Source: a virus
DNA length: 25,535 bases
Virus record (IMG/VR): IMGVR_UViG_3300046459_000478
Coordinates: 1-25,535 of that record
Strand: one strand, 5' to 3'
The notes under the pieces are model-generated. The model did not search any database. It was not told where the DNA came from and saw only the letters and a list, made by a program, of their open reading frames with translations. Both the position numbers and the translations under genes were made by a program. How positions within the stretch are numbered: position 1 is the first letter of the stretch; every line of letters starts with the position of its first letter. Below, piece after piece: positions 4,254 through 23,659 of the stretch.

Positions 4254-4412
4254 ATGGAAACCAACGCGCTTCATACCTCGGGGCTCACCGAGCCCCAGAG
4301 CAACATGACCGTCAGCCTGACGAACAACCGCATGGAGGACAGCCGCTGGAACCGACTCCTCACCATCCTGTTCACCCCGCAGGACGAGGACGCCCAGGCA
4401 GTCGCCGGATAG
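4254..4412 (+). CDS. 52-aa protein of unknown function
   Basis: ATG at 4254, no convincing Shine-Dalgarno, possibly translated from a near-leaderless message. The protein begins METNALHTSGLTEPQ and continues with a basic/aromatic stretch RWNRLLTILF and an acidic end. It contains the in-frame LHT codons CTT CAT ACC (4269-4277) that recur across the window. It lies between the divergent tyrosine recombinase and the serine recombinase, where a small recombination directionality factor or regulator could be encoded, but no excisionase-type motif is visible. Real coding status is likely from position and orientation, not proven. Confidence 0.5.
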   Translation: METNALHTSGLTEPQSNMTVSLTNNRMEDSRWNRLLTILFTPQDEDAQAVAG

Positions 4413-4454
4413 CCACCAACTGCCCTACTCGTCTGACTCGTTCCACATATACTC

Positions 4455-4516
4455 ACTGATCAACAGGACGGCCCTGGCACCGCGAGTAGAGGCGCGGGAC
4501 CAGGGCCTTGATCAGT
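4455..4516. repeat. Nested inverted repeat before the serine recombinase (hairpin or att candidate)
   Basis: Outer arms ACTGATCAA (4455-4463) and TTGATCAGT (4508-4516); middle arms GGCCCTGG (4470-4477) and CCAGGGCC (4500-4507); inner arms CCGCG (4480-4484) and CGCGG (4493-4497) around an 8-bp centre AGTAGAGG. Only a 6-bp bulge on the left breaks symmetry. It ends a few bases before the ribosome binding site of the recombinase gene. Possible roles: terminator of the 52-aa gene, attenuator, operator, or phage attachment site, since serine integrase attP sites are imperfect palindromes next to int. Confidence 0.8.
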
Positions 4517-4535
4517 CTGTAAAGGAGACTGAACC

Positions 4536-6620
4536 ATGGCCAGCATAGCGGCCGAGCGGGCCCGCGTACGCGCGCAGAAGGTCAACGGCACACGCCCCGG
4601 CACCCCCGGAACCTTCCAGTCCAGCACCGCCCTCGCACGCATCGTCAAGCGTGTCGGCGCATACCTCCGGGTGTCCACCAAGGACCAGATCGTCGGCTAC
4701 GGCCTCGACGTCCAGCTCAAGGGCATCCAGGACAACATCGACCTCAAGAACGCGACGGAAGGGCGCAACGGCACCAACATCGTCTGGGAACTCTCCGACG
4801 TCTACGAAGACGCGGGCGAGTCCGGCGCCAAGCAGGACCGGCCCGAGATGATGCGCCTGGAGCGCGACGTCCTCGCCAAGAAAATCGACGTCGTCGCCGT
4901 CCACAAGTTCGACCGCATCGGCCGCACCGGCCGCGCCTTCTGGCACTGGGTCTGGGCCCTCGAAGACGCCGGAACCTCGATCATCTCCGTCACCCAGGAG
5001 ATCGACACCACCACCACCCACGGCGTCACCGCGCTCCAGCAGCTCGCATCCTTCTCCGAGATGGAATGGCGCACCATCCTGGAGCGCACCCAGAACGGCC
5101 TCAACATGAAGGCCGCCTCCGGAGGCTGGACCGGCGGACCCCCGCCCTTCGGCTACTACATCGAGAACCAGGGCAAGCGCGACTCCAAGCTGGGCCTCGA
5201 CACCGAAGAGTGCCGCACCCTCGAACTCGCCGCCCAGTTCATCGTCGAAGGCGGCTACACCGTCGACCGCGCCGCCCACATGCTCAACCTCATCGGCCGA
5301 CTCACCCGCAAGGGCGTGGAGTGGACCGGATCCAACCTCCGGCACAAATTCTTCAACACCGCCCTGGACGGATTCGTCGTCTACCGAAACACCGACGAAG
5401 TCGTCAACAAGCGTCGTAAGCGCGCCACCCGGATGAACCCTGACGGCACCCCCAAGCACGGCCCCATGATGATCATCGACACCCCGATGGTCTTCGAACT
5501 CGACCGACTCATCTCCATCCGCCACGCCCTCAAGCGAAACGGCTGGAACCTCACCGGCCCGTACAAGTACCACCCCCTCAGCACCCGCGTGATCGGTGAA
5601 TGCGGCGCCCACTACACCGGAGTCTGGGTAAAGGCCGAGAACCGCCGCACCTACCGCTGCACCGGAAACAAGTGCGGCGACTCCGTGATCGACGCCGTGG
5701 CGCTCGAAGAAGTCGTCTGGGACAGCCTGAAGAACTTCCTCGGCGACAAGGAGAAGCTGCGCGAGATCGCCAAGGACTGGGTGACCACCGCACCGGATCA
5801 CCGCAAGATGTACGAGGCGCGTATTGAAGAACTCACGCGGGAAATCGCGGGTCTGCGTGAGCTGACCACCACCACGCTGGTCAACCTCGCGAAGGCGGGC
5901 GTCGATGCGCTGGCCATCAATTCAGCAGTGGCGAAGCTGAACGAGGAGATCAACAACAAGCAGGCGATGCTGGACGACACCGTGTCGATGCTGGCGGAGG
6001 CAGAAGAGTCCGCTACTCGCGCCGAGGATTTCCAGCGCCTGGTCGAGATCGCCACCTTCAACCTGGAGTTCATCACCGACCGGCAGAAGGCCGAAGTGAT
6101 GGACCTGCTGGAGATTCAGGTGACGCTCATAGGGCCGGTTCCGCTGGACGGCCGCTTCGGGCCGGACTCCGACATCGAGCAGTGGTTCGGAAAGCGCAGT
6201 GTTCAGCCGGTCGAGCTGACCGATGCGCTGTGGGAGGAGATCCGTCCTCGGATCAGCTTCCGGGCCTCGAAGAAGAGCCACGATCTGCGGGGGCTGGTGG
6301 AGGGTCTGCTCTACAAGGCCCGCACGGGTTGCCCGTGGTCTGAGATGCCGGAGCACTTCCCGCCGAAGGAGGCTCTGAGGGCCCGCTGGAGGGCCTGGAA
6401 GGACGGGGCGTGGGAGAACATCGTCGAGCCTCTTCTGGTGCCCGCTCCGCCGCGTAAGCCGCCGCTGCCGCCCATGAAGGTGACGGGGAACATCGACCCC
6501 CGTCTGGTCGAGTTCACCAACGGTCAGGCGACGAGCCAGGTTCCGCACTCTGCTGGACGAACTTCCAGGGGATTGTTCACGTACGTCATCAACCTGGAAA
6601 AATGGCGATTGGCCGCCTGA
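4536..6620 (+). CDS. Large serine recombinase with C-terminal IS5-transposase-like (DUF4096) module
   Basis: 694 aa, ATG at 4536 with AAAGGAG upstream. Resolvase domain about residues 38-190 with nucleophile S47 in YLRVSTKDQ and the conserved DRIGRTGR region; recombinase domain follows (GGPPPFGY); zinc-ribbon-like GECGAHYTG and RCTGNKCG (about 353-385); coiled coil about 425-495. This is the large serine integrase layout, acting on attP/attB. Unusually, residues about 558-632 (LWEEIRPRISF, TGCPWSEMPEHF, WRAWKDGAWENI) match the N-terminal DUF4096 domain of IS5-type transposases. The first 1.3 kb uses almost only C-ending codons, while the part after about 5.8 kb is more mixed, consistent with a joined gene. 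Likely controls integration of the element. Confidence 0.93.
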   Translation: MASIAAERARVRAQKVNGTRPGTPGTFQSSTALARIVKRVGAYLRVSTKDQIVGYGLDVQLKGIQDNIDLKNATEGRNGTNIVWELSDVYEDAGESGAKQDRPEMMRLERDVLAKKIDVVAVHKFDRIGRTGRAFWHWVWALEDAGTSIISVTQEIDTTTTHGVTALQQLASFSEMEWRTILERTQNGLNMKAASGGWTGGPPPFGYYIENQGKRDSKLGLDTEECRTLELAAQFIVEGGYTVDRAAHMLNLIGRLTRKGVEWTGSNLRHKFFNTALDGFVVYRNTDEVVNKRRKRATRMNPDGTPKHGPMMIIDTPMVFELDRLISIRHALKRNGWNLTGPYKYHPLSTRVIGECGAHYTGVWVKAENRRTYRCTGNKCGDSVIDAVALEEVVWDSLKNFLGDKEKLREIAKDWVTTAPDHRKMYEARIEELTREIAGLRELTTTTLVNLAKAGVDALAINSAVAKLNEEINNKQAMLDDTVSMLAEAEESATRAEDFQRLVEIATFNLEFITDRQKAEVMDLLEIQVTLIGPVPLDGRFGPDSDIEQWFGKRSVQPVELTDALWEEIRPRISFRASKKSHDLRGLVEGLLYKARTGCPWSEMPEHFPPKEALRARWRAWKDGAWENIVEPLLVPAPPRKPPLPPMKVTGNIDPRLVEFTNGQATSQVPHSAGRTSRGLFTYVINLEKWRLAA

Positions 6621-6634
6621 CCTGGGAAAACACC

Positions 6635-6668
6635 GAAGGCCCCTACCCAATCGCGGGTGGGGGCCTTC
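6635..6668. terminator. Bidirectional terminator after the serine recombinase
   Basis: GAAGGCCCC at 6635-6643 pairs with GGGGCCTTC at 6660-6668; ACCC/GGGT extends the stem internally. It lies between the convergent ends of the recombinase gene and the minus-strand gene ending at 6670. Confidence 0.85.
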
Positions 6669-6669
6669 C

Positions 6670-6930
6670 TCATGCCTCGCGCTTGGAGAGCACATCCAGG
6701 ACTCCGAGGAGACTCTGCGCCCCCTGGTGGGCCTCCAGCAGACTCTCCGGCGTCGACTGCTTGCGGTAGTCATCCAGGGCCTTGGCCAGCCCACTGCCGA
6801 CCGCATCCGCCCAGTCGAGCACGTCCCCCGTGGCGAGCCGGTCCAGCCTCTTGGCCGCCTTCGCGCGGATGGGATCGATCTTGCCTTCGCCGCCCCGAAG
6901 GGCTCGCTTCACATCAGCCCAAGAGCGCAC
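6670..6930 (-). CDS. Hypothetical 86-aa protein
   Basis: GTG start at 6930 overlapping the end of the upstream 39-codon ORF (stop at 6909-6911), consistent with coupling. The protein is highly charged and probably all-helical (IRAKAAKRLDRLATG, WADAVGSGLAKALDDYRKQ, LLEAHQGAQSLLGVLDVL). No Cys, membrane segment or recognised motif. Terminal gene of a short minus-strand run that ends at the bidirectional terminator. Function unknown. Confidence 0.65.
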   Translation of the reverse strand: MRSWADVKRALRGGEGKIDPIRAKAAKRLDRLATGDVLDWADAVGSGLAKALDDYRKQSTPESLLEAHQGAQSLLGVLDVLSKREA

Positions 6931-7028
6931 AGGACCTCGTGCTCCGTTTCCATGTCGTCGTTCTTCTTGGCTACGAGTCGGCGGGCCGCCGCCTTCTCTT
7001 CCTCGGTGTTCTCAGACGACGAGTTCAT
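6909..7028 (-). CDS. Possible 39-aa acidic/Lys-rich peptide
   Basis: ATG at 7028 behind a GAGGTG eight bases upstream, overlapping the end of the 99-aa gene (stop at 7012). The product starts MNSSSENTEEEKAAARRL and is Glu/Lys-rich. A longer open frame extends upstream to 7316 but would be read through the 99-aa gene. The chain of overlaps on both sides supports a real coupled gene; its size keeps confidence modest. Confidence 0.45.
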   Translation of the reverse strand: MNSSSENTEEEKAAARRLVAKKNDDMETEHEVLCALGLM

Positions 7029-7311
7029 CGGGCACCTCGTCGAATCTGTGGGCGTTGTCGCGGATCGAGTCCGTGGTGAGCGCGTCCTCTGTTCCCCGGA
7101 CGGCTTCCAGCAGGGCTTCTCTTTCACTGCGCCCGGTATGGCGCCAGCGACCGAACACGAGGCCCTTTCGCCATATCCGGATAATCCAGGAGTGGGACCG
7201 GCGGTACGGCGGGTCCAGTTCATCAGTAGGCGCGGTATGAAGCAACGGTGTCTTTGGGGCCAGGTCGATGAACTGAACGAAGAAAGGCCCCACGTCATGG
7301 GTTCTAGGCAT
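7012..7311 (-). CDS. Hypothetical 99-aa protein
   Basis: ATG at 7311. The central part is basic and aromatic, RSHSWIIRIWRKGLVFGRW, followed by an acidic helical tail ending in FDEVPDELVV. The frame has more protein-like composition than the competing frame 6909-7316, so I take this one as real. It contains LLHT written CTT CAT ACC (motif copy at 7234-7243). The start is back-to-back with a plus-strand HTH gene. No convincing Shine-Dalgarno; a -10-like TAGGCT lies close upstream. Function unknown. Confidence 0.6.
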   Translation of the reverse strand: MPRTHDVGPFFVQFIDLAPKTPLLHTAPTDELDPPYRRSHSWIIRIWRKGLVFGRWRHTGRSEREALLEAVRGTEDALTTDSIRDNAHRFDEVPDELVV

Positions 7312-7359
7312 GACATGGAGCCTATTCTTCGGACGCTCAGGACTGGTAACTTGGCGGCT

Positions 7360-7560
7360 ATGACTGCCGATGATGGACTGACCCTCTCCCCCGCCGAGGC
7401 TGCTGTACTCGCGTGGTTCGTTATCGACGAGCCCAGGATGACCTATGCCGACGCGGCTAAGAAACTTGGAGTCTCAGAAGACTTCGTCCGAATTATCGAG
7501 TCGCGAGCAAAGAGCAAGCTGCGCCGGTTCACCGGCGAGCGTTGGCCTTTGGACCAATGA
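7360..7560 (+). CDS. Small sigma-region-4-like HTH protein
   Basis: 66 aa from the ATG at 7360 (GGCGG five bases upstream); an in-frame ATG at 7315 would add 15 residues but has no ribosome binding site and abuts the divergent gene. The product reads LSPAEAAVLAWFVIDEPRMT then YADAAKKLGVSEDFVRIIES and RAKSKLRR, the layout of sigma70 region 4/LuxR-type HTH domains (LSpaEr.vL...gls..eiA..lgvs..tV.....ra..KLr). It lacks other sigma domains, so it is probably a small transcription regulator. It ends 1 bp from the convergent KTSC gene. Confidence 0.65.
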   Translation: MTADDGLTLSPAEAAVLAWFVIDEPRMTYADAAKKLGVSEDFVRIIESRAKSKLRRFTGERWPLDQ

Positions 7561-7561
7561 T

Positions 7562-8020
7562 TCAGTTTACGCCGGTCGGCTCGTCGAGGTCGTGCTCCGG
7601 CGCATAGGCGAAGTTGTTCAGCGTGCGGTTGATAGCACGGCCCGGAGACTTCACTCGCTTGAAATTCCGCCACACATTCGGCGGGACGTTGTAGTAGCCG
7701 TAGACCTGACCGTTCCGGAATCGAACCCGTAGCGTCTGAGAATCCCTGTCGTAACCAGCGGCAAGAGTTCTCGGGCGCGGCGGATTGATAGAGGGGGTCG
7801 GCTGATACGGGAGAAGGTCGAAGTCGTCGCCGTCCTTGGCCAACTGGATTGCGTCGGCCAGCCCCTGGGACATGACCCTGCGGGATCCCGCTCGGGCGGC
7901 TGGGTTGGGTATCGAGATCGGGGGCTCGGGCTTGTTCAGGTCACCGAAGTCGAAGGACAACTGCTCGTAGGCGTTCGCGCGGTTGTTCCTCCCCCCGCGC
8001 TTGGGGTTGCGTGGTGCCAC
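7562..8020 (-). CDS. KTSC-domain protein
   Basis: 152 aa from a GTG at 8020 with AAGGAG upstream. The N-terminal 85 residues are basic then Pro-rich and likely unstructured. Residues about 88-140 read AAGYDRDSQTLRVRF, NGQVYGYYNVPPNVW and the end of a small beta-rich KTSC domain (pattern GYD...TL.V.F.nG.vY.Y..VP...w..f..A.S.G...N). KTSC domains occur in phage and bacterial proteins, sometimes fused to lysyl-tRNA synthetase, with unclear nucleic-acid-related roles. A terminator precedes it, so it may have its own promoter or be read through. Confidence 0.75.
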   Translation of the reverse strand: MAPRNPKRGGRNNRANAYEQLSFDFGDLNKPEPPISIPNPAARAGSRRVMSQGLADAIQLAKDGDDFDLLPYQPTPSINPPRPRTLAAGYDRDSQTLRVRFRNGQVYGYYNVPPNVWRNFKRVKSPGRAINRTLNNFAYAPEHDLDEPTGVN

Positions 8021-8039
8021 TGTGTCTCCTTACAAAAAC

Positions 8040-8068
8040 AGCCCCGACCCGGGTGGGACGAGGCTGTC
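8040..8068. terminator. Terminator-like hairpin
   Basis: ACAGCC at about 8039-8044 pairs with GGCTGT at 8063-8068, with CGACCC/GGGTGGGACG inside, between the minus-strand genes ending at 8095 and starting at 8020. Confidence 0.6.
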
Positions 8069-8094
8069 AGTCCGGGCGATCAACCCCGGATGGA

Positions 8095-8523
8095 TCAGGC
8101 GGGAACGTTGTCCACCGTGGACGCGGTGGCCGGGCCGTCCGTGGCGCCCGGAGCGGTGCTGGCGCCTGCGTTGGTCGTGCCCGCGTAGACAGCGGTGCCC
8201 GCGAGCAGGTCGTGCGGCTCCGGGCCGCCCGGGTGGGCCTTGGCCTCGTCGTGGGTCAGGACGACCAGACCGGCGTTCGAGGTGGCCGGGTGGATGCCCG
8301 CAGCGGCCTGCGCCTTGGGGTCCGGCAACTGCTTGGCGACGAAGACCTGGCCGGGAATCGGGTCGGTGTTCTCGTACTTCGTGCCGTGCTGGACGGTCCA
8401 GCCCAGGTTCGGGTGGTCCCAGTCAGATGCGCGGCCGGGGACGATCTCCTGGACGGCAGCAGGGGTCTCGCCGACGGGAGCGGGCGTCTCGGCGGTGGGA
8501 GCGCTCTTGGATGCAGCAGCCAC
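8095..8523 (-). CDS. Ala/Pro-rich protein of unknown function
   Basis: 142 aa, GTG at 8523 with a weak AGAAG ribosome binding site. N-terminal 30 residues are Ala/Pro/Thr-rich, a middle globular part reads HPNLGWTVQHGTKYENTDPI and VFVAKQLPDPKA, and the C-terminal 35 residues are again Ala/Thr/Gly-rich (low complexity). Composition resembles small virion or host-surface-associated phage proteins. It shares a GWTVQ peptide, encoded by an identical 17-bp DNA stretch, with the 43-aa protein encoded just upstream. Last gene of the cluster starting at 9411. Function unknown. Confidence 0.65.
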   Translation of the reverse strand: MAAASKSAPTAETPAPVGETPAAVQEIVPGRASDWDHPNLGWTVQHGTKYENTDPIPGQVFVAKQLPDPKAQAAAGIHPATSNAGLVVLTHDEAKAHPGGPEPHDLLAGTAVYAGTTNAGASTAPGATDGPATASTVDNVPA

Positions 8524-9477: not shown

Positions 9478-9720
9478 TTAGATATGAAGACCGGCCTTCT
9501 TAAGCTGATTCTTGGCCTTGATCCAGCCAGGGGTCGCTCCGGTTAGCCCGCTGATGCAGACCGTGTTCCCCTTTGGGTCGACCCACCGGATGTGGTTTCC
9601 TCCGGTGACTGTCACCGTCCATTTGTCCTTTCGCGCCTTCTTTACGACCTTCTCGATCTCCTTGTCGGCTCCGAGTCGGCCAGAGCTGCTGCTGGCCACT
9701 GGTGCACCCTTGCGGGCCAT
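9478..9720 (-). CDS. HicA-like (YcfA family) small RNA-binding protein
   Basis: 80 aa, ATG at 9720 with AAGGAGG upstream. After a basic start, VKKARKDKWTVTVTGGNHIR followed by WVDPKGNTVCISG and KAKNQLKKAGLHI gives the beta-alpha pattern of the HicA/YcfA double-stranded-RNA-binding-like fold, with the typical GG-x-H near residue 42 that is catalytic in HicA toxins. HicA proteins are mRNA interferases paired with HicB antitoxins; no HicB is seen nearby, so this may be a solitary phage version with another role. It has its own promoter-like sequence upstream. Its C-terminus ends in Leu-His-Ile coded CTT CAT ATC, a near copy of the recurrent motif. Confidence 0.65.
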   Translation of the reverse strand: MARKGAPVASSSSGRLGADKEIEKVVKKARKDKWTVTVTGGNHIRWVDPKGNTVCISGLTGATPGWIKAKNQLKKAGLHI

Positions 9721-12717: not shown

Positions 12718-12796
12718 CGAAAGAGTTAAGGCTGTTCCGCACTAAGAGGGGGTGGCAGACTGTGATGCGGTACCCGCAACCAGGGAGGGAACGCTG

Positions 12797-13657
12797 GTGG
12801 ACAGTCCGACCGTGCTGAGACGACGGCTCGGCGGCGAGCTGCGCATCTTGCGCCGGAGTCGCAACCTGACCACCGCGCAGGTGGCCAAGGCGCTCACGTG
12901 GTCCGAGTCCAAGGTCAGCAGGATCGAGACTGGCAAGTCTCCACTGTCTGACCATGATGCCAGGGATCTCCTGACCCAGTACGGAGTTGAGGATCCCGAG
13001 GAAGTGAGGCAGTTCGTCTCCCTGGTGCGCCGGAGTCGTCAGAACGGCTGGTGGCACTCCTTCGGGGACGCCCTGCCGGACTGGTTCAGGCCCTATCTGG
13101 GCTTCGAGTCCGACGCCGCGACGATCCTTACCTACCAAAGCGAGCTGGTGCCCGGACTGCTGCAAACAGAGAGTTACGCCCGCGCCGTAATCCGGTCGAT
13201 GAACCCCGAACTGTCGGCCGACGAAATCGACGCACGTGCAAGTGCACGGGTTCAGCGGCAGGGGATCCTGTCTACCGACAACCCTCCCAGGGTGTGGGCG
13301 ATCATCAACGAGGCGGTCGTCCGTCGAGTCATCGGCTCGACGAGCATCATGCAGGAGCAGTTGAAGTCCCTGGCGGACCTGGCGGACACCCTGCCGAACG
13401 TCACTGTCCAGGTGCTCCCCTTCGACGCCGGGGCCCATGCAGCGCTGGGGTACAGCTTCTCCTACATGAGCTTCGAGGACGTTCCCGGCTCCATCGCCTA
13501 CTCGGAAGCGCCCACTAGCGCTACCTACCTGGACAAGGCATCAGATCTAAGCCGCCACGAAGACATCTTCCAGCGGCTCGTGGCCGCCGCCGAGCGGCCT
13601 GAGAAGTCCATCAACATGATCAGAACCATCGCAGAGGGATACAGCCATGCAGGGTAA
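12797..13657 (+). CDS. XRE-family regulator with DUF5753 domain
   Basis: From the GTG at 12797 (AGGGA eight bases upstream) 286 aa; a GTG at 12752 would add 15 residues. Residues about 8-65 form a lambda-repressor-type HTH (LGGELRILRRSRNLTTAQVA, WSESKVSRIETGKSPLS). The rest is a DUF5753 domain, with WFRPYLGFESDAATILTYQS, ELVPGLLQTESYARAV and VRVLPFDAG-type segments. This architecture is typical of Streptomyces WhiJ-like regulators, which act with a small DUF397 partner encoded next to them, as is the case here. In a phage it is probably a host-derived accessory regulator that could influence host development or lysogeny. Confidence 0.92.
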   Translation: MDSPTVLRRRLGGELRILRRSRNLTTAQVAKALTWSESKVSRIETGKSPLSDHDARDLLTQYGVEDPEEVRQFVSLVRRSRQNGWWHSFGDALPDWFRPYLGFESDAATILTYQSELVPGLLQTESYARAVIRSMNPELSADEIDARASARVQRQGILSTDNPPRVWAIINEAVVRRVIGSTSIMQEQLKSLADLADTLPNVTVQVLPFDAGAHAALGYSFSYMSFEDVPGSIAYSEAPTSATYLDKASDLSRHEDIFQRLVAAAERPEKSINMIRTIAEGYSHAG

Positions 13658-13847
13658 CGAAGACCTGGTCTTCCGTAAGAGCAGCTACAGCAACGGCTCC
13701 GGCGACTGCGTCGAGGTGGCAGTCACCGCCACAGGCGACCGGGCCGTGCGTGACTCCAAGAACCCCACCGGGGGCCTCCACTTCTTCAATCCGTCGGAGT
13801 GGGCTGCCTTCGTGGCGGGAGTGAAGGATGGCGAGTTCGACAACTGA
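13647..13847 (+). CDS. DUF397 protein, partner of the XRE regulator
   Basis: 66 aa, ATG at 13647 overlapping the XRE gene end by 11 bp, hence coupled. The sequence LVFRKSSYSNGSGDCVEVAV, VRDSKNPTGGLHFFNPSEW, AAFVAGVKDGEFD is a textbook DUF397 domain (W.KSsyS...g.CVEVA......vavRDSK.p.gp.l.fs..eW.aFl..vk.G.f). In Streptomyces these small acidic proteins work with DUF5753 XRE regulators, in some cases modulating them. A strong terminator follows. Confidence 0.93.
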   Translation: MQGNEDLVFRKSSYSNGSGDCVEVAVTATGDRAVRDSKNPTGGLHFFNPSEWAAFVAGVKDGEFDN

Positions 13848-13905: not shown

Positions 13906-14412
13906 CTACAGCCACTCTCCGGTCAGGGCGCCGTGGACGTCGGCTTCCCGGTAGGTATCCGGCTTGAGGATCTTGCCGTCCTCGCGGCGGATGACCTGGC
14001 CGTCGACCACCTTGCTCATGTTCGAGCGGTGGACCTCTCTGAAGACGGCCTCCAGGGGGATCTCCAGGAGGTCGGCGGTGCCGTAGACGACGTACAGGAC
14101 GTCGGCCAGTTCCTTGGCCAGGGCCGCGTACCGGTACGGCGCCTCAACGGTGTGCAGGCCGGTGATGGTGGCGGCCGGGTTGGCCTCGAAGTAGTCGTCC
14201 ATGATCTGCGTCTTGCGGTAGTTCAGAAGGGCCTCCAGGGCCTCCTGGACCTCCTCGGCGATGAGGGTGGACCGCAGGGAGATCAGGTCGTCCCGGGCGG
14301 CCTCGTCACGCTCGATGAAGGGCTTCTCCCCCACCGCCTGGTGCCACTGTCTGACGGCTTCCATGGGGCGGTGGGGCTGGGTATGAAGCAGGGTGCGCGG
14401 GGTGTTCGTCAC
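13906..14412 (-). CDS. MazG-like nucleotide pyrophosphohydrolase
   Basis: 168 aa from the GTG at 14412 with GGAG six bases upstream; the longer frame to 14577 runs into the neighbouring gene. All-alpha NTP-PPase/PRA-PH superfamily: the metal-binding EExxE motif is in LIAEEVQEALEAL and the ExxD motif in LAKELADVLYVVYG; the end, VFREVHRSNMSKVVDGQVIR followed by DGKILKPD, is characteristic. Such enzymes hydrolyse (d)NTPs to monophosphates and pyrophosphate, or clear abnormal nucleotides or alarmones; phages use them to adjust nucleotide pools. Contains a GCTTCATACC copy near its N-terminus (LLHT). Last gene of the operon beginning at 16869. Confidence 0.85.
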   Translation of the reverse strand: MTNTPRTLLHTQPHRPMEAVRQWHQAVGEKPFIERDEAARDDLISLRSTLIAEEVQEALEALLNYRKTQIMDDYFEANPAATITGLHTVEAPYRYAALAKELADVLYVVYGTADLLEIPLEAVFREVHRSNMSKVVDGQVIRREDGKILKPDTYREADVHGALTGEWL

Positions 14413-14423
14413 GGGTTCTCCAG

Positions 14424-14900
14424 TCACGCGGGGAGGATGAGGTCCAGGTCCACCGGCCGGACGTTCTGCGGCAGGCGGTTGTCGTCGAAGAGGTGGACTC
14501 CGGCGCGCTCGTAGGCCAGGTCGACCAACTGCGAGCAGATGAGCCGGTCCTGCCGCTGGATGCGGCGGTCCACCCACCCGATGGAGATGTGGAACCTCTT
14601 GAGGGTGATCGCCAGGATGTCGAGCCAGCCGTACGGAGTGCCCACCAGGGAGACCGCGTTGGCCCAGATCTGCTCCCGGGTGTCGTCCGGGAGCGAGGTA
14701 TGAAGGTTGAAGCGGGCGTTGGGGTACTGCCTGATGTCGCCGAAGGCCGCGCCGGAGGGGTTGGCCTCGACGATGAGCCCGCCGGGGCCGACGATGAAGG
14801 CGTGGTTCACGCGACCGCCAGTGAACTTGCGGATGACCCAGCCCGCGAAGCCGCCGGTCGCGGTGACACCGAAGGAGCCGATCGGAGGAGCGTCAGGCAT
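14424..14900 (-). CDS. Permuted NlpC/P60 (YiiX/papain-like) hydrolase
   Basis: About 158 aa from the ATG at 14900 (an ATG at 14909 is an alternative; both overlap the upstream stop). The catalytic His comes first, in GGRVNHAFIVGPGG, and the Cys later, in RLICSQLVDLAYERAGV, the order of circularly permuted NlpC/P60 enzymes (YiiX/YaeF type). Segments SLVGTPYGWLDI and LPQNVRPVDLD fit the family. Members cleave peptide or amide bonds in peptidoglycan or lipids; no signal peptide, so an intracellular or virion-associated role is likely. Near copy of the LHT motif at 14697-14706. Could assist cell-wall passage. Confidence 0.75.
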   Translation of the reverse strand: MPDAPPIGSFGVTATGGFAGWVIRKFTGGRVNHAFIVGPGGLIVEANPSGAAFGDIRQYPNARFNLHTSLPDDTREQIWANAVSLVGTPYGWLDILAITLKRFHISIGWVDRRIQRQDRLICSQLVDLAYERAGVHLFDDNRLPQNVRPVDLDLILPA

Positions 14901-15159: not shown

Positions 15160-15343
15160 TGTCTTCCTCCAGGTTGTACTTGCCGTAGAAGTCGATGTGC
15201 AGGGAGTCGTTGTTCTCCGCGCGGTCCAGCCAGCGCTTGGCGAAGACCTCGCGGGAGTAGAAGAGAGTCCTGGCGGCCCAGGTGCCGTCCTTGTTGATCA
15301 GCACTCGGACCTTCCAGATGTGGTTGTCCCTAGCCGTCCGCAC
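15149..15343 (-). CDS. Hypothetical 64-aa protein
   Basis: GTG at 15343 with GGAGGGG upstream, overlapping the end of the previous gene by 14 bp. The sequence VRVLINKDGTWAARTLFYSR followed by AKRWLDRAENNDSLHIDFYG suggests a small beta-alpha-beta fold. His here is encoded by CAC with CTG for Leu, in contrast to the recurrent CTT CAT motif elsewhere. No known function. Confidence 0.65.
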   Translation of the reverse strand: MRTARDNHIWKVRVLINKDGTWAARTLFYSREVFAKRWLDRAENNDSLHIDFYGKYNLEEDSVA

Positions 15344-15650
15344 GGGCAGCCCCTCCGGGCAAGATATGAAGCGCGCCGGGCTGGTCGAGTTCCAGGAACG
15401 GCTCGGCGATCTGGACGGCGACCTGCGTGAAGGCCTCGCCGATCTGCTCCTGGATTCCTCCCAGGCCCTGCAACTGGTCGGCCAGTTCCAGCAGGGTGCC
15501 GACGATGTCCTTGATCGCGACGTAGTACTCGCCGCTCTCGTCGTCCCGCATGAAGCGGTAGGTGGCCTCGTGCTCGGACGTGGTCTCGGTGGTGACGCTC
15601 AAGGGGTTCTCCAGGGTGGTGGTGCCATCAGAGCCAGATGCGGTGCTCAC
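15330..15650 (-). CDS. Hypothetical 106-aa protein
   Basis: GTG at 15650, overlapping the stop of the phosphoesterase gene by 23 bp. N-terminal 20 residues are Ser/Thr-rich; then TYRFMRDDESGEYYVAIKDI followed by a helical region (TLLELADQLQGLGGIQEQIG) and a C-terminal tail. A near copy of the recurrent motif, CTT CAT ATC (15363-15372), encodes Leu-His-Ile near the end. Function unknown; it may bind the neighbouring phosphoesterase. Confidence 0.65.
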   Translation of the reverse strand: MSTASGSDGTTTLENPLSVTTETTSEHEATYRFMRDDESGEYYVAIKDIVGTLLELADQLQGLGGIQEQIGEAFTQVAVQIAEPFLELDQPGALHILPGGAARADG

Positions 15651-16869
15651 TGGTAACGCGTCCCTTCTCGGGGTGGATGAAGTGCAGGCGCTGGGAGGGG
15701 TCTCCCGTGGCCGCCACGAATTCGTGCGCGTAAATGTTGTCCGACTCGGGAGAGCCAGTCATGAAGACACTGCCGCCGTTGGCCATCTGCAACTGCATGG
15801 CCTGGTGGTAGTGGCCGATGTAGAGGTCGCGGAAGGACGGGAGGACGCCGGAGGCCCACTGGTTGGCCTTGCGCAGGATCCCGTACGCCGGAATGTTGCC
15901 GCCGAAACTCTTGATCTCGTCGCCGTGGATCGCCATCGCGGAGTAGTTGCCGATGGTGAAATGCTGGTACCAGTCCCCTGACGTCTGGAACTTCGTCAGC
16001 CGGGGCTCGTGGGCCAGGCGCTGCTTCACGATGTTGTAGACCATGCGGTCCACGTTGTCCGAGGCCTTGATGCCGTCGCCCTTGCGGCCGAGACGTCCGT
16101 GGTTGCCGTACTCGGCGACAACCTCGACCGTCTCGTAGGTATGAAGCGCCTGCGTGATCGTCCAGATCATCAGGTCAGCGACGTCAAACATCTGCTCGTA
16201 CAACGTGCCATCCAACTCCCAGACCTGGCCGGGGAAGATGGAGACACCTTCGACCATGTCTCCGGTGAACAGCAGCACGCCGTGCTTGACCGGGTGGTCG
16301 GCGCGCTGGATGTCGGTGATCTCGGTGGCCTTCTCGACGTACTTCTCGATCCGCCTGTGCATGATCTCGCGGTCGTACGTCTCGGTCCGCTTGCCGCCCT
16401 GCCAGTCGGTGAGGTGCCACAGGGCTACCTCGGTCGGCTTCATGCGGGTGTCGGCGAGAGGCGGGGTGACATCGCGCTGGCCGACGTACTGTGCGGCATC
16501 CGTGGCGGCTCGGTAGACGGCTTCGATGTACTCGTCGCCGCGCGCCTTGGCCTTCTTGTAGGCCGCGAACAGACGGCGGTTGTCAGCCTCCAGGGAAGCG
16601 ATGCGCTCCTCCTGGCAGACCTCCTCCGTGTCCTCGGCCACTGCCTCCGGATCGCCCTGCTCGGGCTCGGTATGAAGCGTCTTGCGACCGGGCTCGACCA
16701 GGATGGCCCGCTTGTACTCGTTGGCCTTGCGCCAGCGCCGGACGGCGGTCTCGGACGTCTCGACGCCGTTGAAGACGAGGTCGTCGGCAGCGGCCTGGTG
16801 GCCGACGTTCGGGTCCATGAGGATCTGCTGGACCCACTCGACGTCGATCATGTCCTGAAGCGTGCTCAA
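15628..16869 (-). CDS. Calcineurin-like metallophosphoesterase with N-terminal HTH
   Basis: 413 aa taking the TTG at 16869 as start because AGAGG lies seven bases upstream; the frame is open to 16920. Residues about 10-50 look like an HTH (VQQILMDPNVGHQAAADDLV, SETAVRRWRKANEY), followed by a coiled-coil stretch to about 125. The phosphoesterase domain shows D155 in WHLTDWQGG, TGDMVEG (202-208), GNHGR (255-259), HGDE (315-318) and GHYH (352-355), the metal-binding order of the family. Likely a phosphodiesterase or nuclease acting on nucleic acid. Contains two exact GCTTCATACC motif copies (residues 65-67 and 242-244). First gene of the operon running to 13906. Confidence 0.88.
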   Translation of the reverse strand: MSTLQDMIDVEWVQQILMDPNVGHQAAADDLVFNGVETSETAVRRWRKANEYKRAILVEPGRKTLHTEPEQGDPEAVAEDTEEVCQEERIASLEADNRRLFAAYKKAKARGDEYIEAVYRAATDAAQYVGQRDVTPPLADTRMKPTEVALWHLTDWQGGKRTETYDREIMHRRIEKYVEKATEITDIQRADHPVKHGVLLFTGDMVEGVSIFPGQVWELDGTLYEQMFDVADLMIWTITQALHTYETVEVVAEYGNHGRLGRKGDGIKASDNVDRMVYNIVKQRLAHEPRLTKFQTSGDWYQHFTIGNYSAMAIHGDEIKSFGGNIPAYGILRKANQWASGVLPSFRDLYIGHYHQAMQLQMANGGSVFMTGSPESDNIYAHEFVAATGDPSQRLHFIHPEKGRVTSEHRIWL

Positions 16870-18192: not shown

Positions 18193-18681
18193 CTACTTCA
18201 CGGTGTAGCGACCGTAGTAAACGGACTTGGTCCAGGGCTTGTAGTAGTTGACGCCCTTACCGGGCCGCTCGGTTTCCAGCCAGGTGTGGGAATTGACGTA
18301 GATACCGACGTGGTAGACGTAGCCGTGGGAGTCGTGCGCGAAGACGAGGTCCCCGGTCTTGGGGGTCTTGACGTGCACGCTCTTGCGGTACTGGTCGTTG
18401 GCGACCCGGGGGATGGTCTTCCCGAGGCGCTTGAACGTGTACTGGGTGAATCCAGAGCAGTCGAAACCTCTGGACGGTGAGGAACCTCCCCACACGTACC
18501 TGACGCCTATGAATTTGGCACCCTGCCTCACTATCTTCGTTCCGGACGACACCGTGGTGGTGGTGGCCGAATACGAGACAGTAGTGGATGCGGCCGGGGT
18601 ATTCGCCTGCGCGCTTGATGTAGCGAGCGGGGAAATAGCCAGGGCACCTGCGAGCAGAAGTCCAGCGATGCTCTTATTCAT
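18193..18681 (-). CDS. Secreted NlpC/P60 cell-wall endopeptidase
   Basis: 162 aa from the ATG at 18681 (GGAG eight bases upstream; an earlier start at 18696 is less likely). Residues 1-26, MNKSIAGLLLAGALAISPLA then TSSAQA, are a Sec signal peptide with an AQA cleavage site. The NlpC/P60 domain follows: YVWGGSSPSRGFDCSGFTQY with catalytic C75, and the His in YVYHVGIY (H124). Such enzymes cut the peptide part of peptidoglycan. Export by host Sec makes it different from the permuted enzyme at 14424 and suggests action outside the membrane: lysis, wall remodelling in lysogens, or exclusion of other phages. It is embedded among tRNA genes. A TAATCT -10-like box lies about 35 bp upstream. Confidence 0.9.
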   Translation of the reverse strand: MNKSIAGLLLAGALAISPLATSSAQANTPAASTTVSYSATTTTVSSGTKIVRQGAKFIGVRYVWGGSSPSRGFDCSGFTQYTFKRLGKTIPRVANDQYRKSVHVKTPKTGDLVFAHDSHGYVYHVGIYVNSHTWLETERPGKGVNYYKPWTKSVYYGRYTVK

Positions 18682-18846
18682 GACAGCACTCCGCACGCCT
18701 GCGAGATTAGGTGACGGGCTCGGGATAAGTGCCTTTCCCTACCACAAATGACTCTGCGGATTCGCCCCAAAAGATTCGGTCTCCCGCCCCTGTTCAGGGT
18801 TGAGTTCAGGATTTGTCCAGGAACAGGGCTAAGCGTCTGGACAAAG

Positions 18847-19392: not shown

Positions 19393-19418
19393 TCGGGTGC
19401 AGGTCAGCTCACGTCAGC

Positions 19419-19784
19419 TCACTTGTGCGCGTCCTCGAACTCGCGGAGCAGGTCCTCCGGCAGGCGGCCGGTGTGGGACACGTCGCGCCCCTGCTCCTGC
19501 AACCACTTGCGGACGTCCGCCGTGGTGAAGGCGCCCCTCTTGCCCTTGATCGCCCGGCGCACCTGCGTACCCGTGCGCTTCTGCGTGTCGCTTGCGATCG
19601 AGGTGAAGGGCTCCAGCACCTCATGCATGTGGTCGATGTGCTCCTGGCACAGGTCCATCAGGTAGCGGGTGGTCCCGACGGTGATCGGGGTGGCCTCGTT
19701 GTTCGGCACATCCTGCCCGCAAGCTACCTTTTCGCGCTTCCGAGTGACCTTGAAGTCGCACTTCTTCATCACTACGTCTGCCAT
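19419..19784 (-). CDS. Lsr2-like DNA-binding protein with zinc-type N-terminus
   Basis: 121 aa, ATG at 19784 with GGAG eight bases upstream; a longer frame to 19937 crosses the promoter and is rejected. The C-terminus, TADVRKWLQEQGRDVSHTGR followed by LPEDLLREFEDAH, matches the AT-hook-like DNA-binding domain of Lsr2 (i..WA..nG..v..rGRip..v...y..a). The N-terminus has C9, C22, C46 and H49 (CQEH), suggesting a zinc-bound domain in place of the Lsr2 dimerisation domain. Lsr2 silences AT-rich foreign DNA in actinobacteria; phage versions may counter or recruit silencing, or maintain lysogeny. Own promoter with an operator-like palindrome. Confidence 0.82.
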   Translation of the reverse strand: MADVVMKKCDFKVTRKREKVACGQDVPNNEATPITVGTTRYLMDLCQEHIDHMHEVLEPFTSIASDTQKRTGTQVRRAIKGKRGAFTTADVRKWLQEQGRDVSHTGRLPEDLLREFEDAHK

Positions 19785-19846
19785 CGATAACTCCTTAACA
19801 ACGCGACCCCCGTAGTGCGCCGCACAGCTTTCATTTGACGTCAACC

Positions 19847-19876
19847 ATACTGCTAGTGCAGTACGGCATCTGTCAA
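19847..19876 (-). promoter_or_regulatory. Promoter of the Lsr2-like gene with palindromic operator candidate
   Basis: Minus-strand TTGACA (plus 19871-19876) and CAGTAT (plus 19847-19852), 18-bp spacer. A palindrome TACTGC-TAGT-GCAGTA at 19848-19863 covers the -10 and spacer, a natural place for a repressor. Confidence 0.6.
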
Positions 19877-19905
19877 GCGATTCCAGTGTGGCGCTCGACA
19901 AGCCG

Positions 19906-20853
19906 TTACCTGAAGGTCCTACCCAGAAGTGCCTCAACCGGGCTAATAACCTCGCTCACGAGGCCTCCCTGCGTGTTGCGACGGCCCTCGTTCACCGGAG
20001 GACGGGGCGCCGCAGTAACCAAGGCGGTGGTCGGCGCCGGAGAGGCGTTATCCCTGCGGTGCTTGCCGATGTGGTGGTGCCCCTTGTGCTCCCCCGCAAG
20101 GTGGTGGTGGTGCTTGTGCCCGTCCTTGTGCCCGTGCTTGTGATCGTGCTCGGGCGCGTGCTCGGGCTGAGGGTGCTCAGGCTCCTTGCGGTGCTTGCCT
20201 CCCGGAATGCCGCCCCGCGCGCTGTTGGGGTTCACGGTGGGAAGCGTTGCGGGGGCTGCGGGCGCTGCCATGACCGTCGGCGCGGCCACCGGGGCCGGAG
20301 TCTGAGACGGTGACTCTTCGGCGGTGAGGTCGGTCCGCTCCACCGTGGGCTTGTGCTGCTCCCTGGCCTGATCGACGGCGTACGCCCCGACACCGATGGC
20401 GAACGGAGTCGCCACAGCAGCAACCATGGTGACCATGGCCCGAGACATCACGCGCTGCCGAGTCGTAGGTGCACGACGGTGGGAGACCCTTTTCGTCTCA
20501 GGTTCCGGCGTAGGTTCCGGCGTGGGGCAGCAGGACTCCGCGTCGTCACAGCGCCAGAAGCCCATCTCCTGCCGTTCCTCGATCCAGCCGAAGCACAGCT
20601 CCCCTTCGTCAACCATCTTGAGGAGTACGGCTTCTATTTGCCCTTCCGCAGTGTCCTCGAAGGGATCTGCCAGGCCGTAGAAGTCGGGGATGGAGCCCTC
20701 GTGAGGCACGTCTTCCTTGTCGCGGAGGTGCGGGGTATTTGCTTCTTTGGGCATCTCCTGGGAGGCGCCGTTGCCCCCCAGGAAGTGACGGCGCAGCCCT
20801 CGGACGTCCTGATTCCCTGTGTCGTCCGCACCGTCGCGCCTGATCGTGTTCAT
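19906..20853 (-). CDS. Single-pass membrane protein with a His-rich external-type region
   Basis: 315 aa, ATG at 20853. Residues 1-130 are hydrophilic with an acidic part (DFYGLADPFEDTAEGQIEAV, ELCFGWIEERQEMGFWRCDD) and a CC pair; a basic stretch SHRRAPTTRQRVMSRA precedes one membrane helix (VTMVAAVATPFAIGVGAYAV, about residues 141-160), so the N-terminus is predicted cytoplasmic. The outer part is Ala/Pro/Thr-rich and then His-rich: EHDHKHGHKDGHKHHHHLAG, EHKGHHHIGKHRR. The cluster of His suggests metal (Zn, Ni, Co, Cu) binding or a pH-sensitive linker; Asp/His/Lys repeats also occur in some cell-wall-binding linkers. Function unknown. Confidence 0.75.
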   Translation of the reverse strand: MNTIRRDGADDTGNQDVRGLRRHFLGGNGASQEMPKEANTPHLRDKEDVPHEGSIPDFYGLADPFEDTAEGQIEAVLLKMVDEGELCFGWIEERQEMGFWRCDDAESCCPTPEPTPEPETKRVSHRRAPTTRQRVMSRAMVTMVAAVATPFAIGVGAYAVDQAREQHKPTVERTDLTAEESPSQTPAPVAAPTVMAAPAAPATLPTVNPNSARGGIPGGKHRKEPEHPQPEHAPEHDHKHGHKDGHKHHHHLAGEHKGHHHIGKHRRDNASPAPTTALVTAAPRPPVNEGRRNTQGGLVSEVISPVEALLGRTFR

Positions 20854-21348
20854 TGTCGTTACGTAACCCCTCCTACCGGACGCACGCAGGTCGATGTAGC
20901 TGGGGACGCGCCTGCGTGCGTGATCTTCACGTGAGGCTGGTGTTTCAGCGGATCACACAGGCGCAGATGGGCCGAAACCCGTACGAGCAGCAGGGCTGCA
21001 CGGGTGTGTGATCTGTGGGGAACCAGTGAACGGAACGTATCACCGAGGGGTCGTTTCGACTATGGGTGTCCGGGCTTCCGCAACGCGGTTGCTTTACTTT
21101 TCAAGGGCCCACATGGGTATCTCTTTACCTTACGGAGCACAACTCATGACCATTACCGCTGGTTACCGCTGGGTGGCCAGAGTGTGAAGGTTTCGTCAAG
21201 GTGGTGTAAGTCACAGCCGCATTTCTGCCGGTTGACCGAAACCTGGACGCCAGTTGTCAAGCTACCACTGGACAAGACTTGACCCCGCCACGGGATGCCG
21301 TAACGGGGCCATATGTCAATCTGCTTTGCCTATGAGGCAACTATGAGG
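20854..21348. other. 495-bp gene-free stretch rich in inverted repeats
   Basis: No convincing gene. Contents: CGCACGCAGG (20881-20890)/CCTGCGTGCG (20911-20920); GATCACACA (20951-20959)/TGTGTGATC (21005-21013) enclosing CCCG/CGGG and CAGC/GCTG; TTACCGCTGG twice in tandem (21153-21172); AGGTTTCGTCAA (21188-21199) facing TTGACCGAAACCT (21232-21244); a TGTCAAGC (21255-21262); a terminator-like hairpin CCCCG/CGGGG near 21283-21307. Base composition is less GC-rich than the surroundings. Candidate origin, non-coding RNA or regulatory hub. Confidence 0.6.
21283..21307. terminator. Terminator hairpin after the kinase-phosphatase gene
   Basis: CCCCG pairs with CGGGG and ACGG with CCGT around GATG, shortly after the minus-strand stop at 21349. 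Confidence 0.6.
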
Positions 21349-22266
21349 TTAGAAGTCGCCCGGGGCAACCTGAAGGCAGGTCAGACCGAGGTTGTTCCGC
21401 CACATATCGACGACCTGGTTGCGGTCGTCGAGCACGAAGCGGACGTTGTAGAACGGCTCGATCTTCCCTCGGTAGATCTCTTCCTTCACGACGGCGTCCC
21501 TGCGCATGTCACCGGCCGCCCGCATGTACAGGAACGCCTCCCGGGCCCACTTCCCCACGTGACGCTCCAGCCAGGCCCGCGTCTGCTCGTAGCAGGAGCC
21601 GTCCCGGCCGGACAGGAACACGATCTCCACGCCCGAGTCGTCGAGGGTGTTTACCAGGTTCACGACATCCCTGATCGGCTCGTCCTCGCCGACCTTGTCC
21701 CAGTCGAAGGGACCGCGCGAGACCATCTTGGCCAGCGTGCCGTCGATGTCGACCAGGACCGCGTCCTTGAGGGACGGGTCGTACACGGGAGGCGCCGCAC
21801 GAGGCCGCAGGTACGTGTCGTACATCCGCTGGATGACCTTCTCTCCCACGCTCCGCTCGCGCAGCAGGTCGCGCTTGATGCAGGTCCGCAGCGGCACGTC
21901 AGTGAAGTCCTTGACGACGAACTGCACCCCGTAGTGCTCCGCGATGTCTCGCAGGTTCTTCTCGTGGACCGGGTTGAAGTTGGTGTCGTCCACGATCACG
22001 CTGATGCCACGCACCAGCCAGGTATGAAGCAGTGCGTCCCGGGACCGGACGACCTGCCGCTCGTTCTTTCCGTGCCAGCGCTCCGCGTGCAGCATCGCGC
22101 GCAGGTCGTCCTTGTTGATGCGGATCAGGGTGCCGGGGGCGGCCTTGAGGACCTGCTCCTTTGCCCAGGTGCTCTTGCCCGAGCCAGGCAGGCCCTTGGT
22201 CATGGTCAGGGTAGTGGTCACAGGCTTCTCCTTGGGTCCGCAGCACTTGCACTTGAGGTAGGTCAT
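21349..22266 (-). CDS. Polynucleotide 5'-kinase/3'-phosphatase (T4 Pnk type)
   Basis: 305 aa, ATG at 22266. Kinase domain first: P-loop GLPGSGKST (25-33), RINKDDLRAMLH, VDDTNFNP. Phosphatase (HAD) domain second: DIDGTLAKM with D173/D175, IVFLSGRDG, FVLDDRNQVVDMWR. This is the domain order of T4 polynucleotide kinase, which heals broken RNA ends (5' phosphorylation, 3' phosphate removal). The Cys-rich start (KCKCCG) is extra. It overlaps the upstream gene by 4 bp and is two genes after an RNA ligase, so the two most likely repair RNA cut by host anticodon nucleases or toxins. An exact GCTTCATACC encodes LHT at residues 80-82. Confidence 0.93.
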   Translation of the reverse strand: MTYLKCKCCGPKEKPVTTTLTMTKGLPGSGKSTWAKEQVLKAAPGTLIRINKDDLRAMLHAERWHGKNERQVVRSRDALLHTWLVRGISVIVDDTNFNPVHEKNLRDIAEHYGVQFVVKDFTDVPLRTCIKRDLLRERSVGEKVIQRMYDTYLRPRAAPPVYDPSLKDAVLVDIDGTLAKMVSRGPFDWDKVGEDEPIRDVVNLVNTLDDSGVEIVFLSGRDGSCYEQTRAWLERHVGKWAREAFLYMRAAGDMRRDAVVKEEIYRGKIEPFYNVRFVLDDRNQVVDMWRNNLGLTCLQVAPGDF

Positions 22267-22559
22267 CGACAGCACCCGTCGCAGCCGTGGACGCTCTCCC
22301 AGGCCGCCTCCTCGTCGCCGAGGAACATCCGCTTGTATTCGAGGTCGTCCGGGTCGGGGTGACCGATGCCATGGGGACAGGTGCGCTCCATCAGCCCCCG
22401 ATCCATCCGGAAGTGCTGGGGGAAATCGCTCATGGAGTGCTGGGAGGGGTTGTGAACAGAGCAGTGGCGGCCGATGCAGCCCTTGCGGGGGTGGGCGAGG
22501 ATCTGCTCCCCGCCCACCAGCTCGGCCCGCTCGAACCACCCGACGAGGTCGAGGGTCAC
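22263..22559 (-). CDS. Cys/His-rich putative zinc protein
   Basis: 98 aa, GTG at 22559, overlapping the RNA ligase stop by one base and the kinase start by 4 bp. Contains GCIGRHCSVHNPSQHS, TCPHGIGHPDPDD and the C-terminal HGCDGCCR, i.e. several CxxC/CxxH pairs that could hold one or two zincs. A longer frame (to 22964) is read through the ligase and is not used. Location between the ligase and kinase-phosphatase suggests a role in the same RNA repair unit, perhaps RNA binding. Confidence 0.7.
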   Translation of the reverse strand: MTLDLVGWFERAELVGGEQILAHPRKGCIGRHCSVHNPSQHSMSDFPQHFRMDRGLMERTCPHGIGHPDPDDLEYKRMFLGDEEAAWESVHGCDGCCR

Positions 22560-23659
22560 TACGCCACGTCCTCCGAGACCGCGTAGAACGGCTTCTCGAA
22601 CTCCGGCCGGACCCGCTTCCACAGCCGCGTCGAGACGTCCTTGCCGTCGTACAGACCGAACAGGACGTCCTTGTACGGGCTCGTCTGGGCCAGCAGGGCG
22701 AACTCCTTGCGGGCGTCCTTGTCCCACTCCGGCCGACGCACGCGCTTCTTGATCCACTCGAACTCGTCCACGGCGTCGGCCTTGACCCGATCGAAGTCGG
22801 ACTCCAGCCGGTGCACCTGCTTGTGGACCCAGGAGTAGAACTCGTCCGGCACGTGATCGATCCAGGACTCGATGCCCTGCCCGTTCGACAGCGCGTCCCA
22901 CACCGAGAGGGAGGAAACGTTCGTGAGGATGCGGTGCAGCCGCACGTACTCGTCGAACTTCCACTTCACCCGCAGATCACTCTCCGGGAAGTGGACGACG
23001 AAGCCCTCCTCGTTCTTGCTCTGCGGCGCCGACAGCACCTCGGCCAGCGAGGAGTAGTAGCCAACCGGCGCGTTCCACGGGCCCGGCCAGTCGTACGGGT
23101 CCTTCGGGAGCGTCCGGCCGGTCTCGGTGTCGACCACCGCGATCAGGACCAGGTCGTCCATGTCCTTGTAGTCCACGACGATCCGGTTCTGCGGGTAGAC
23201 GATCTCGAAGAGGTACGTCAGGCCGAGGATCGGCTCAAAGGTCGGGTACCGGGTCTGGAGCACTTCCGTGGCATGGAGCGCCTGGGGGGAGGTGAAGGAG
23301 CCCCGCGTGGCGATGCGGAACTCCCCGGTATGAAGCCCGTAGAGGACACCCAGACTGCCGTCCCACTTGATGTAGGTGTCGACCGGCGCGTTCATCAGCC
23401 GCGCCTGCTCGTCCGACGGGATCTGCGACCAGTTGAAGAACTTCTCGAAGGGCCGCGCGACGACCTTCTCGGTGACGGAGTTGATGATCAGGCCCCGGGT
23501 CTTCTTGGTGACCTCGTTCCACGCCCCGTCGTACTGCGCCTTGTTCGTGTAGTTGAAGATCACCCGGCTGCCGTCGGGGCTGGTCTGGGTGCGTACGTAG
23601 CCCTTGCCGATGTTGTCGATCAGGTCGTCGGGCTTGAAGACGTTGTCCAGGTGCACCAT
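22559..23659 (-). CDS. T4 Rnl1-family RNA ligase
   Basis: 366 aa, ATG at 23659 with GAGGAG at the right distance; open frame further upstream lacks a site. The nucleotidyl transferase motif I is YIKWDGSLG with adenylated lysine K98; further motifs are FRIATRGSFTS, LTYLFEIVYPQNRIV (motif IIIa-like) and EEGFVVHFPESDLRVKWKF (motifs IV-V). Size and C-terminal helical domain fit T4 RNA ligase 1, which reseals tRNAs cut in the anticodon loop after end healing by Pnk. Works with the kinase-phosphatase two genes downstream. Contains an exact GCTTCATACC (LHT, residues 109-111). Confidence 0.93.
   Translation of the reverse strand: MVHLDNVFKPDDLIDNIGKGYVRTQTSPDGSRVIFNYTNKAQYDGAWNEVTKKTRGLIINSVTEKVVARPFEKFFNWSQIPSDEQARLMNAPVDTYIKWDGSLGVLYGLHTGEFRIATRGSFTSPQALHATEVLQTRYPTFEPILGLTYLFEIVYPQNRIVVDYKDMDDLVLIAVVDTETGRTLPKDPYDWPGPWNAPVGYYSSLAEVLSAPQSKNEEGFVVHFPESDLRVKWKFDEYVRLHRILTNVSSLSVWDALSNGQGIESWIDHVPDEFYSWVHKQVHRLESDFDRVKADAVDEFEWIKKRVRRPEWDKDARKEFALLAQTSPYKDVLFGLYDGKDVSTRLWKRVRPEFEKPFYAVSEDVA

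Follow-up and report, generated by a model that had tools for sequence, protein, structure and literature searches.

A word set in one reading frame across the messages of related phages, with a solo HicA-like protein as its candidate reader

Dispersed recognition sites in phage genomes have hitherto been known as DNA sites, and we know of no case in which such sites keep to a single reading frame over dozens of genes. Searches of the open-licence literature, in the portions available, likewise showed no example. The stoperators of cluster A mycobacteriophages number about 20-30 asymmetric, transcription-oriented and type-specific sites per genome and, in the available text of PMC9283540 and PMC6550527, are bound as DNA by a transcription repressor and sit within promoters and short intergenic spaces. 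At the RNA level, RegB of phage T4 is an RNase that cuts phage messenger RNAs (mRNAs), its own included, at a short word, and works with the phage polynucleotide kinase; according to the same portion of PMC3014915, its sites lie mostly in translation-initiation regions, structure protects against it, and no frame rule is given for its GGAG sites. Here, we describe CTTMATAYC, a word that resembles stoperators in number, orientation and type-specific variants and that keeps to one codon frame. It recurs in a 25,535-nucleotide stretch of DNA that we call the window (IMG/VR virus record IMGVR_UViG_3300046459_000478, positions 1 to 25,535) and in the genomes of related, actinobacteria-type phages. 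We regard it as well supported that this word acts in cis as an mRNA element, with M fixed as C or A in each phage.

The window, a 25.5 kb record, holds seven exact copies of GCTTCATACC as the initial annotation had claimed, one on the plus strand and six on the minus strand and each where it had been placed, against 0.01 expected; none of 100 dinucleotide shuffles gave seven. Near copies claimed at 14697-14706 and 15363-15372 were recovered at one mismatch, a further one is TCTTCATATC at 9481-9490, and the total under the pattern CTTCATAYC is 10 sites. The shared coding frame asserted for the exact copies extends to all 10, each of which reads CTT CAT ACC or CTT CAT ATC on the coding strand and encodes Leu-His-Thr or Leu-His-Ile. 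Together they account for 10 of the 24 Leu-His pairs within 38 window open reading frames (ORFs) chosen by hand. Permutation of synonymous codons in the window, with genes from a crude caller, gave 0.69 expected sites versus 8 observed, all eight in frame. As regards an insertion or bypass element, the motif in the RNA ligase stands in the context GLHTGEF, without an obvious insert.

Relatives of this phage were found in IMG/VR. One of them, G001 (107 kb), encodes a phosphoesterase 99% identical to that of the window, and the two are approximately the same phage. GCTTCATACC is present in 12 of 25 searched records, with up to 23 copies each. In the genomes of ten relatives, the top over-represented 9-mer is CTTMATACC in every one: CTTCATACC in the C-type genomes G001, G004, G011, G016 and G020 (24-35 copies per genome) and CTTAATACC in the A-type genomes G006, G008, G010, G014 and G021 (21-38 copies per genome), with at most one opposite-strand copy per genome. 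CTTAATAYC occurs in 11 of the 25 records, nine of which carry at least four copies, and in none of the 12 C-type records. Of the 25 records, 12 are of C type and nine of A type, with single opposite-type copies in G010 and G018; these record counts are not independent, as some of the records nearly duplicate others. The motif is enriched across the relatives' genomes, so the idea is not refuted by an ordinary genome-wide frequency. Among named records, phages of Streptomyces and Gordonia come closest, with tiny stretches in common, and a search of GTDB genomes with the phosphoesterase returned one short match that we take to be spurious.

The frame is kept throughout the ten genomes. Their 319 CTTMATAYC sites represent 65 ortholog groups, and every site has an in-frame upstream ATG, GTG or TTG when tiny ORFs are counted (for example, ATG CGA CTT CAT ACC TAC GGG GGC CCC TGT TGA). 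Of 241 coding sites assigned by the crude gene caller, window included, 236 are in frame 0 and five are off frame. Synonymous-codon permutation within genes produced null means of 0.26-1.56, against 13-34 sites in the ten relatives; the observed count thus exceeds the codon-shuffled mean in every genome. Among the 47 groups with enough changes, the third codon position is the most variable in 38 and not so in nine. A stop follows within 45 nucleotides of the motif in 14 of the 65 groups, compared with 6.5% of codons in G001 genes.

Motif sites are orthologous between the two types, and the letter at M changes in concert. In alignments of at least 50% identity, in which the cells are not independent, C-type relatives keep the motif His of G001 in 81 of 92 aligned cells and have Asn there in none; in A-type relatives, Asn takes its place in 52 of 83 cells and His is kept in 15. 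For non-motif His residues of G001, 57 of 2312 A-type cells have Asn. Motif residues therefore change with type and are not, as the initial annotation had allowed, conserved with ordinary codons. Since the same letter changed in most copies of related phages, a phage factor is suggested as the reader. A-type G010 and G018 have one CTTCATACC each, which appears, by eye, to be the counterpart of window site 7234; because this apparent counterpart stays unswitched, site 7234 may lie outside the functional series. A-type G029 also has one CTTCATACC copy.

Many sites are followed by a hairpin. Over the 30 nucleotides past the motif at 279 sites, the mean minimum free energy (MFE) is -10.3; random places give -6.4 and mononucleotide shuffles -7.8. 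Against a synonymous recoding null for 145 non-redundant coding windows, downstream MFE is -9.71 vs -7.34 (P 3e-13), whereas sequence upstream of the motif is less folded than its recoded versions (-5.20 vs -5.65, P 0.008) and the interval from +45 to +75 differs little (-6.69 vs -6.40, P 0.08). A strong stem is found at 107 of 183 non-redundant sites vs 20% of shuffles, and it begins 2 nucleotides past the motif in 44 of those 107; some stem follows seven of the 10 window sites, one of these being weak. These hairpins tend to be GC-rich, with sequence that varies between sites. The nut sites of phage lambda (boxA plus boxB) similarly join a short linear RNA word to a following stem-loop, but they are few and not codon-phased, and their hairpin is sequence-specific.

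One site has a distinct setting. In eight of the ten genomes, a motif lies directly 5' of TAG and is followed by GGTATK, which is complementary to the motif and whose K follows the phage type, forming a C-G pair in four genomes and an A-U pair in four. The 3' part of this leader contains a GC-rich stem and then a stem that may cover the start codon of a small conserved protein, while sequence 5' of the motif varies among genomes and the frame is kept. The leader is outside the window and lies at about 4090-4250 in G001, ahead of the small conserved ORF; the pattern was not found in G010 and G011. Altogether, strict frame, excess over synonymous shuffles, hairpin and concerted base change support the earlier proposal that the nucleotide sequence itself is under selection, probably at the mRNA level. 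The hairpin, the type switch, the leader and the candidate reader were not part of that proposal. From among the functions then offered, a Chi-like DNA mark is disfavoured because the frame is fixed and the plus-strand copy is inside a plus-strand ORF, a plain ribosome pause leaves the switch between C and A types unexplained, and an RNase or RNA-binding-protein site fits best.

We tentatively propose, with something less than even confidence, that the element is read in translated messages by an HicA-like RNase or RNA-binding protein whose use resembles that of RegB. Translated phage mRNAs would carry CTTMATAYC in the frame CTT-MAT-AYC, often with a GC-rich stem-loop about 2 nucleotides further on. 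Judging from its position, the stem would be met by a ribosome that has CTT in its P site and MAT in its A site; the HicA-like RNase would read or cut the exposed motif in codon phase, which would tune the life of phage messages, that of the HicA-like protein among them. We infer the identity of the reader, the cutting and the benefit of the element, and the likeliest phage-encoded reader would be the solo HicA-like protein encoded at 9478-9720. The RegB fold is not known to be related to that of HicA. A translation-linked reader of the HicA kind is favoured because E. coli HicA strongly favours cuts ahead of the first codon position (PMC8546651, in the available text), a codon-phase preference that resembles the reading proposed here; because T4 RegB offers a precedent; and because the window phage encodes both a polynucleotide kinase and an RNA ligase. 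If true, a phage controls its own translated messages through a codon-phased word, and a use is suggested for an HicA-like protein without its usual partner. It would also bear on whether HicA works with the ribosome, a question raised as open in the same part of PMC8546651.

Several features connect this protein to the word. Just three of 105 testable genes split strictly by type, and the HicA-like protein does so with the widest margin (13.9 points; mean between-type identity 48%); it also ranks top by gap with both the G001 query (118 genes) and the G006 query (117 genes). The A-type proteins carry a 14-column insertion. In all 13 C-type records (about six distinct sequences), CTTCATATC lies at the end of the HicA-like gene or one codon before it, and the motif occurs within the gene itself in 13 of 13 C-type and one of eight A-type records. 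The likeness to HicA mRNA interferases (PF07927), including Adephagia gp91, consists of element order, G-x-x-H and a weak family match: six of 11 members match the PF07927 profile at E <= 1 (best 5.1e-5), the predicted secondary structure runs alpha-beta-beta-beta-alpha, and G40 and H43 are invariant in 11 of 11. In a structure comparison (VIA rows), HicA chains make up five of the top seven (Z 4.5-5.0), 5yrz and 1whz among them. The spacing of G40 and H43 equals that of the residues named for Adephagia gp91 in the accessible part of PMC11373665. The protein differs from the HicA family in the lack of a PF15919 HicB (none in eight records; other HicB models were not searched), in a score below the family cut-off and in the recurrence of a long word in the genome that encodes it. 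Alignment searches of PDB sequences gave 20 weak matches, none of them HicA (best E 0.26), and a phage collection yielded no match at E 0.1.

More distant phages extend the association. A scan of IMG/VR with the HicA-like profile found 26 loci, two of them in the more distant phages G026 and G027. G026 has homologs of 56 of 154 G001 proteins, an HicA-like homolog at 49% and its own word, CTT CTA GNC, at 26 sites versus 1.0 expected (22 in frame 0 plus four off frame by the caller); all 27 genome copies are on one strand, and the word encodes Leu-Leu-X with neither a His nor an Asn codon. Of 14 phages compared as a panel, G001 (log10 P -21.6), G006 (-32.6) and G026 (-16.4) showed strong in-frame words, with G022 (-9.0, a Chi-like word) and then Dagobah (-6.3) as runners-up; the ten panel phages other than G001, G006, G026 and G027 had no match to the HicA-like profile. 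The word test covered 98-112 kb for G001, G006, G022 and G026 and 47-50 kb for each of seven named phages among those ten, so absence of a word in the latter is weaker evidence; G022, which has 46 proteins in common with G001, was covered over its whole genome. A PF07927 match in Dagobah (E 0.003) is weak, with a stop inside, and was counted as no HicA-like gene. Across lineages, the words are CTTCATAYC, CTTAATAYC and CTTCTAGNC, with a stem-loop in two of the three. A possible, if doubtful, extension of the proposal is a phage-wide, translation-phased RNA code, in which dozens of in-frame CTT-NNN-NNC words would be ribosome-read by a fast-evolving solo HicA-like nuclease, word and reader switching together to give the types private control or mutual exclusion of messages.

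A number of observations weigh against an HicA-like reader or against parts of the mechanism. With the G001 query, the protein is third by mean difference; the G021 query is no test of its gap rank because it gave no match among those listed, and two further genes show a strict split between the types. In seven of eight A-type records, CTTAATCTC and not the motif closes the HicA-like gene. The curated PF07927 cut-off is exceeded in none of eight and none of 12 records, the model has a predicted local distance difference test (pLDDT) score of 66.8 and no Foldseek match with E <= 0.001, and the first VIA row is YkfF rather than HicA, although the rows are so close as to be ties. In G026, only 25 of the 27 sites are preceded by a start in frame, and no hairpin follows the word (mean -5.8 vs -5.7 upstream; 49 sites under a looser pattern); G027, although it has an HicA-like homolog (42% over 50 residues), lacks a strong in-frame word across 39 kb of coding DNA. 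Within ortholog groups, 291 of 1300 hairpin pair cells are broken, with 14 two-sided compensations, and no downstream hairpin was found at 7234-7242, 9481-9489 and 14380-14388 in the window. The C and A types may reflect one or few switches, and type is partially linked to a His transfer RNA (tRNA) gene, present in three of five C-type and none of five A-type genomes. Because of the third place by mean difference and the lean of the His tRNA to C type, we place less weight on the HicA-like reader and more on some other one.

Some other protein or an RNA of the phage could be such a reader of the same in-frame mRNA element, as could a tRNA-dependent step at the His or Asn codon, or the ribosome itself through a pause or attenuation signal; we consider this rather unlikely. 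This alternative shares the well-supported element, with its enrichment, frame, hairpin and switch, and it accommodates the leader in eight of ten genomes, where the motif before TAG is paired with its own complement as in attenuation, and the G027 HicA-like gene without a word. A changing codon of CAT or AAT would suit a tRNA-dependent step, as does the distribution of the His tRNA, but Asn tRNA genes (like those for Leu(CAA)) are in all ten genomes and the G026 word has no His or Asn codon. For a trans-acting RNA, a separate full complement of the motif was sought in the ten genomes and none was distinct from the sites' own complements among the matches listed; Rfam at gathering scores found tRNAs and the cyclic di-AMP (c-di-AMP) riboswitch, and nothing else, in seven sources. 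For another protein, just two more of the 105 genes show a strict split between the types, and their margins are smaller. Because related phages have swapped the word, the identity of the reader can be put to the test. A sponge, in which motif-bearing mRNAs would serve as RNA antitoxin to a toxic HicA-like RNase without an encoded HicB, is improbable: the many sites per genome and the lack of PF15919 noted above agree with it, but sequestration requires no reading frame.

We hold an immunity repressor acting on dispersed, asymmetric DNA sites oriented with transcription, as at stoperators, to be just as improbable. The number, orientation and type-specific variants of the sites are similar, and the window encodes integrases and a helix-turn-helix regulator; however, all 319 sites are in one frame with an upstream start, stoperators occupy promoters and short intergenic spaces, and a site acting as DNA would require no reading frame and no RNA hairpin. 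CTT is a +1 slippery codon, and the stem would begin about 5 nucleotides past the presumed A-site codon, as hairpin-stimulated programmed frameshifting might use. We nevertheless find frameshifting very hard to credit given 65 ortholog groups, a -1 slip that would at once meet TAA in the A type and TCA in the C type, and the absence of a hairpin in G026. The perhaps unswitched counterpart of site 7234 in two A-type relatives is what chance, codon bias or conserved protein residues would lead one to expect, but that explanation is practically negligible and, for the whole series, is ruled out by the synonymous shuffles together with residues that change with type.

The 10 window sites lie in varied genes. 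On the plus strand, GCTTCATACC at 4268..4277 forms codons 6-8 of a 52-residue ORF with its ATG at 4254, and a hairpin at 4280..4296 begins 2 nucleotides past it (7-bp stem GGGGCTC/GAGCCCC; MFE -13.9). All others are on the minus strand. Those without a following hairpin, or without a strong one, are the GCTTCATACC copies in a 99-residue protein gene (7234..7243, perhaps not functional) and in the MazG-like gene (14380..14389), and CTTCATATC at 9481..9489 in the final codons of the gene for the candidate trans factor, the 80-residue HicA-like protein (9478..9720; PF07927 E=0.0038, below cut-off), singled out by its type margin. CTTCATACC at 14697..14705, in a 161-residue protein gene (phrog_1128 match), precedes a hairpin at 14672..14694 with an 8-bp stem GCTCCCGG/CCGGGAGC (MFE -17.2). 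CTTCATATC at 15363..15371, close to the end of a 106-residue protein gene, precedes a structured stretch at 15338..15362 (MFE -12.5), in which the pairings differ between the stem search and the MFE fold. The phosphoesterase gene (phrog_284, exonuclease) contains two copies of GCTTCATACC, at 16138..16147 with a weak hairpin at 16115..16134 (MFE -6.6) and at 16669..16678 with a hairpin at 16654..16666 (4-bp stem GCCC/GGGC; MFE -8.0). Finally, the copy in the polynucleotide kinase gene (22021..22030) is followed by a hairpin at 22000..22018 (8-bp stem GCTGGTGC/GCATCAGC; MFE -12.2), and that in the RNA ligase gene (23327..23336) by one at 23297..23324 (10-bp stem GGAGTTCCGC/GCGGGGCTCC; MFE -17.4).

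Other repeated words and window features were also observed. AAGCCGTAA / TTACGGCTT occurs in 8-14 copies on both strands of A-type G008, G010, G014 and G021 and is perhaps an operator, and the coding DNA of G022 is enriched in TGGTGGAG and CTGGTGGA, which we take to resemble the E. coli Chi word. Two integrase genes adjoin in the window, at 3068-4264 (minus strand) and 4536-6620 (plus strand); from the matched families, they are presumably of the tyrosine kind and the large serine-recombinase-like kind, respectively. A DUF5753 helix-turn-helix regulator and then a short ORF, presumably DUF397, occupy 12752-13847 (plus strand). A c-di-AMP riboswitch aptamer (RF00379, 71.9 bits) at 18682-18816 (minus strand) lies directly 5' of an NlpC/P60 protein gene (18193-18696), amid tRNA genes, and the riboswitch is also found in five of six other scanned loci. 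An Lsr2-like DNA-binding protein is encoded at 19419-19937 (minus strand).

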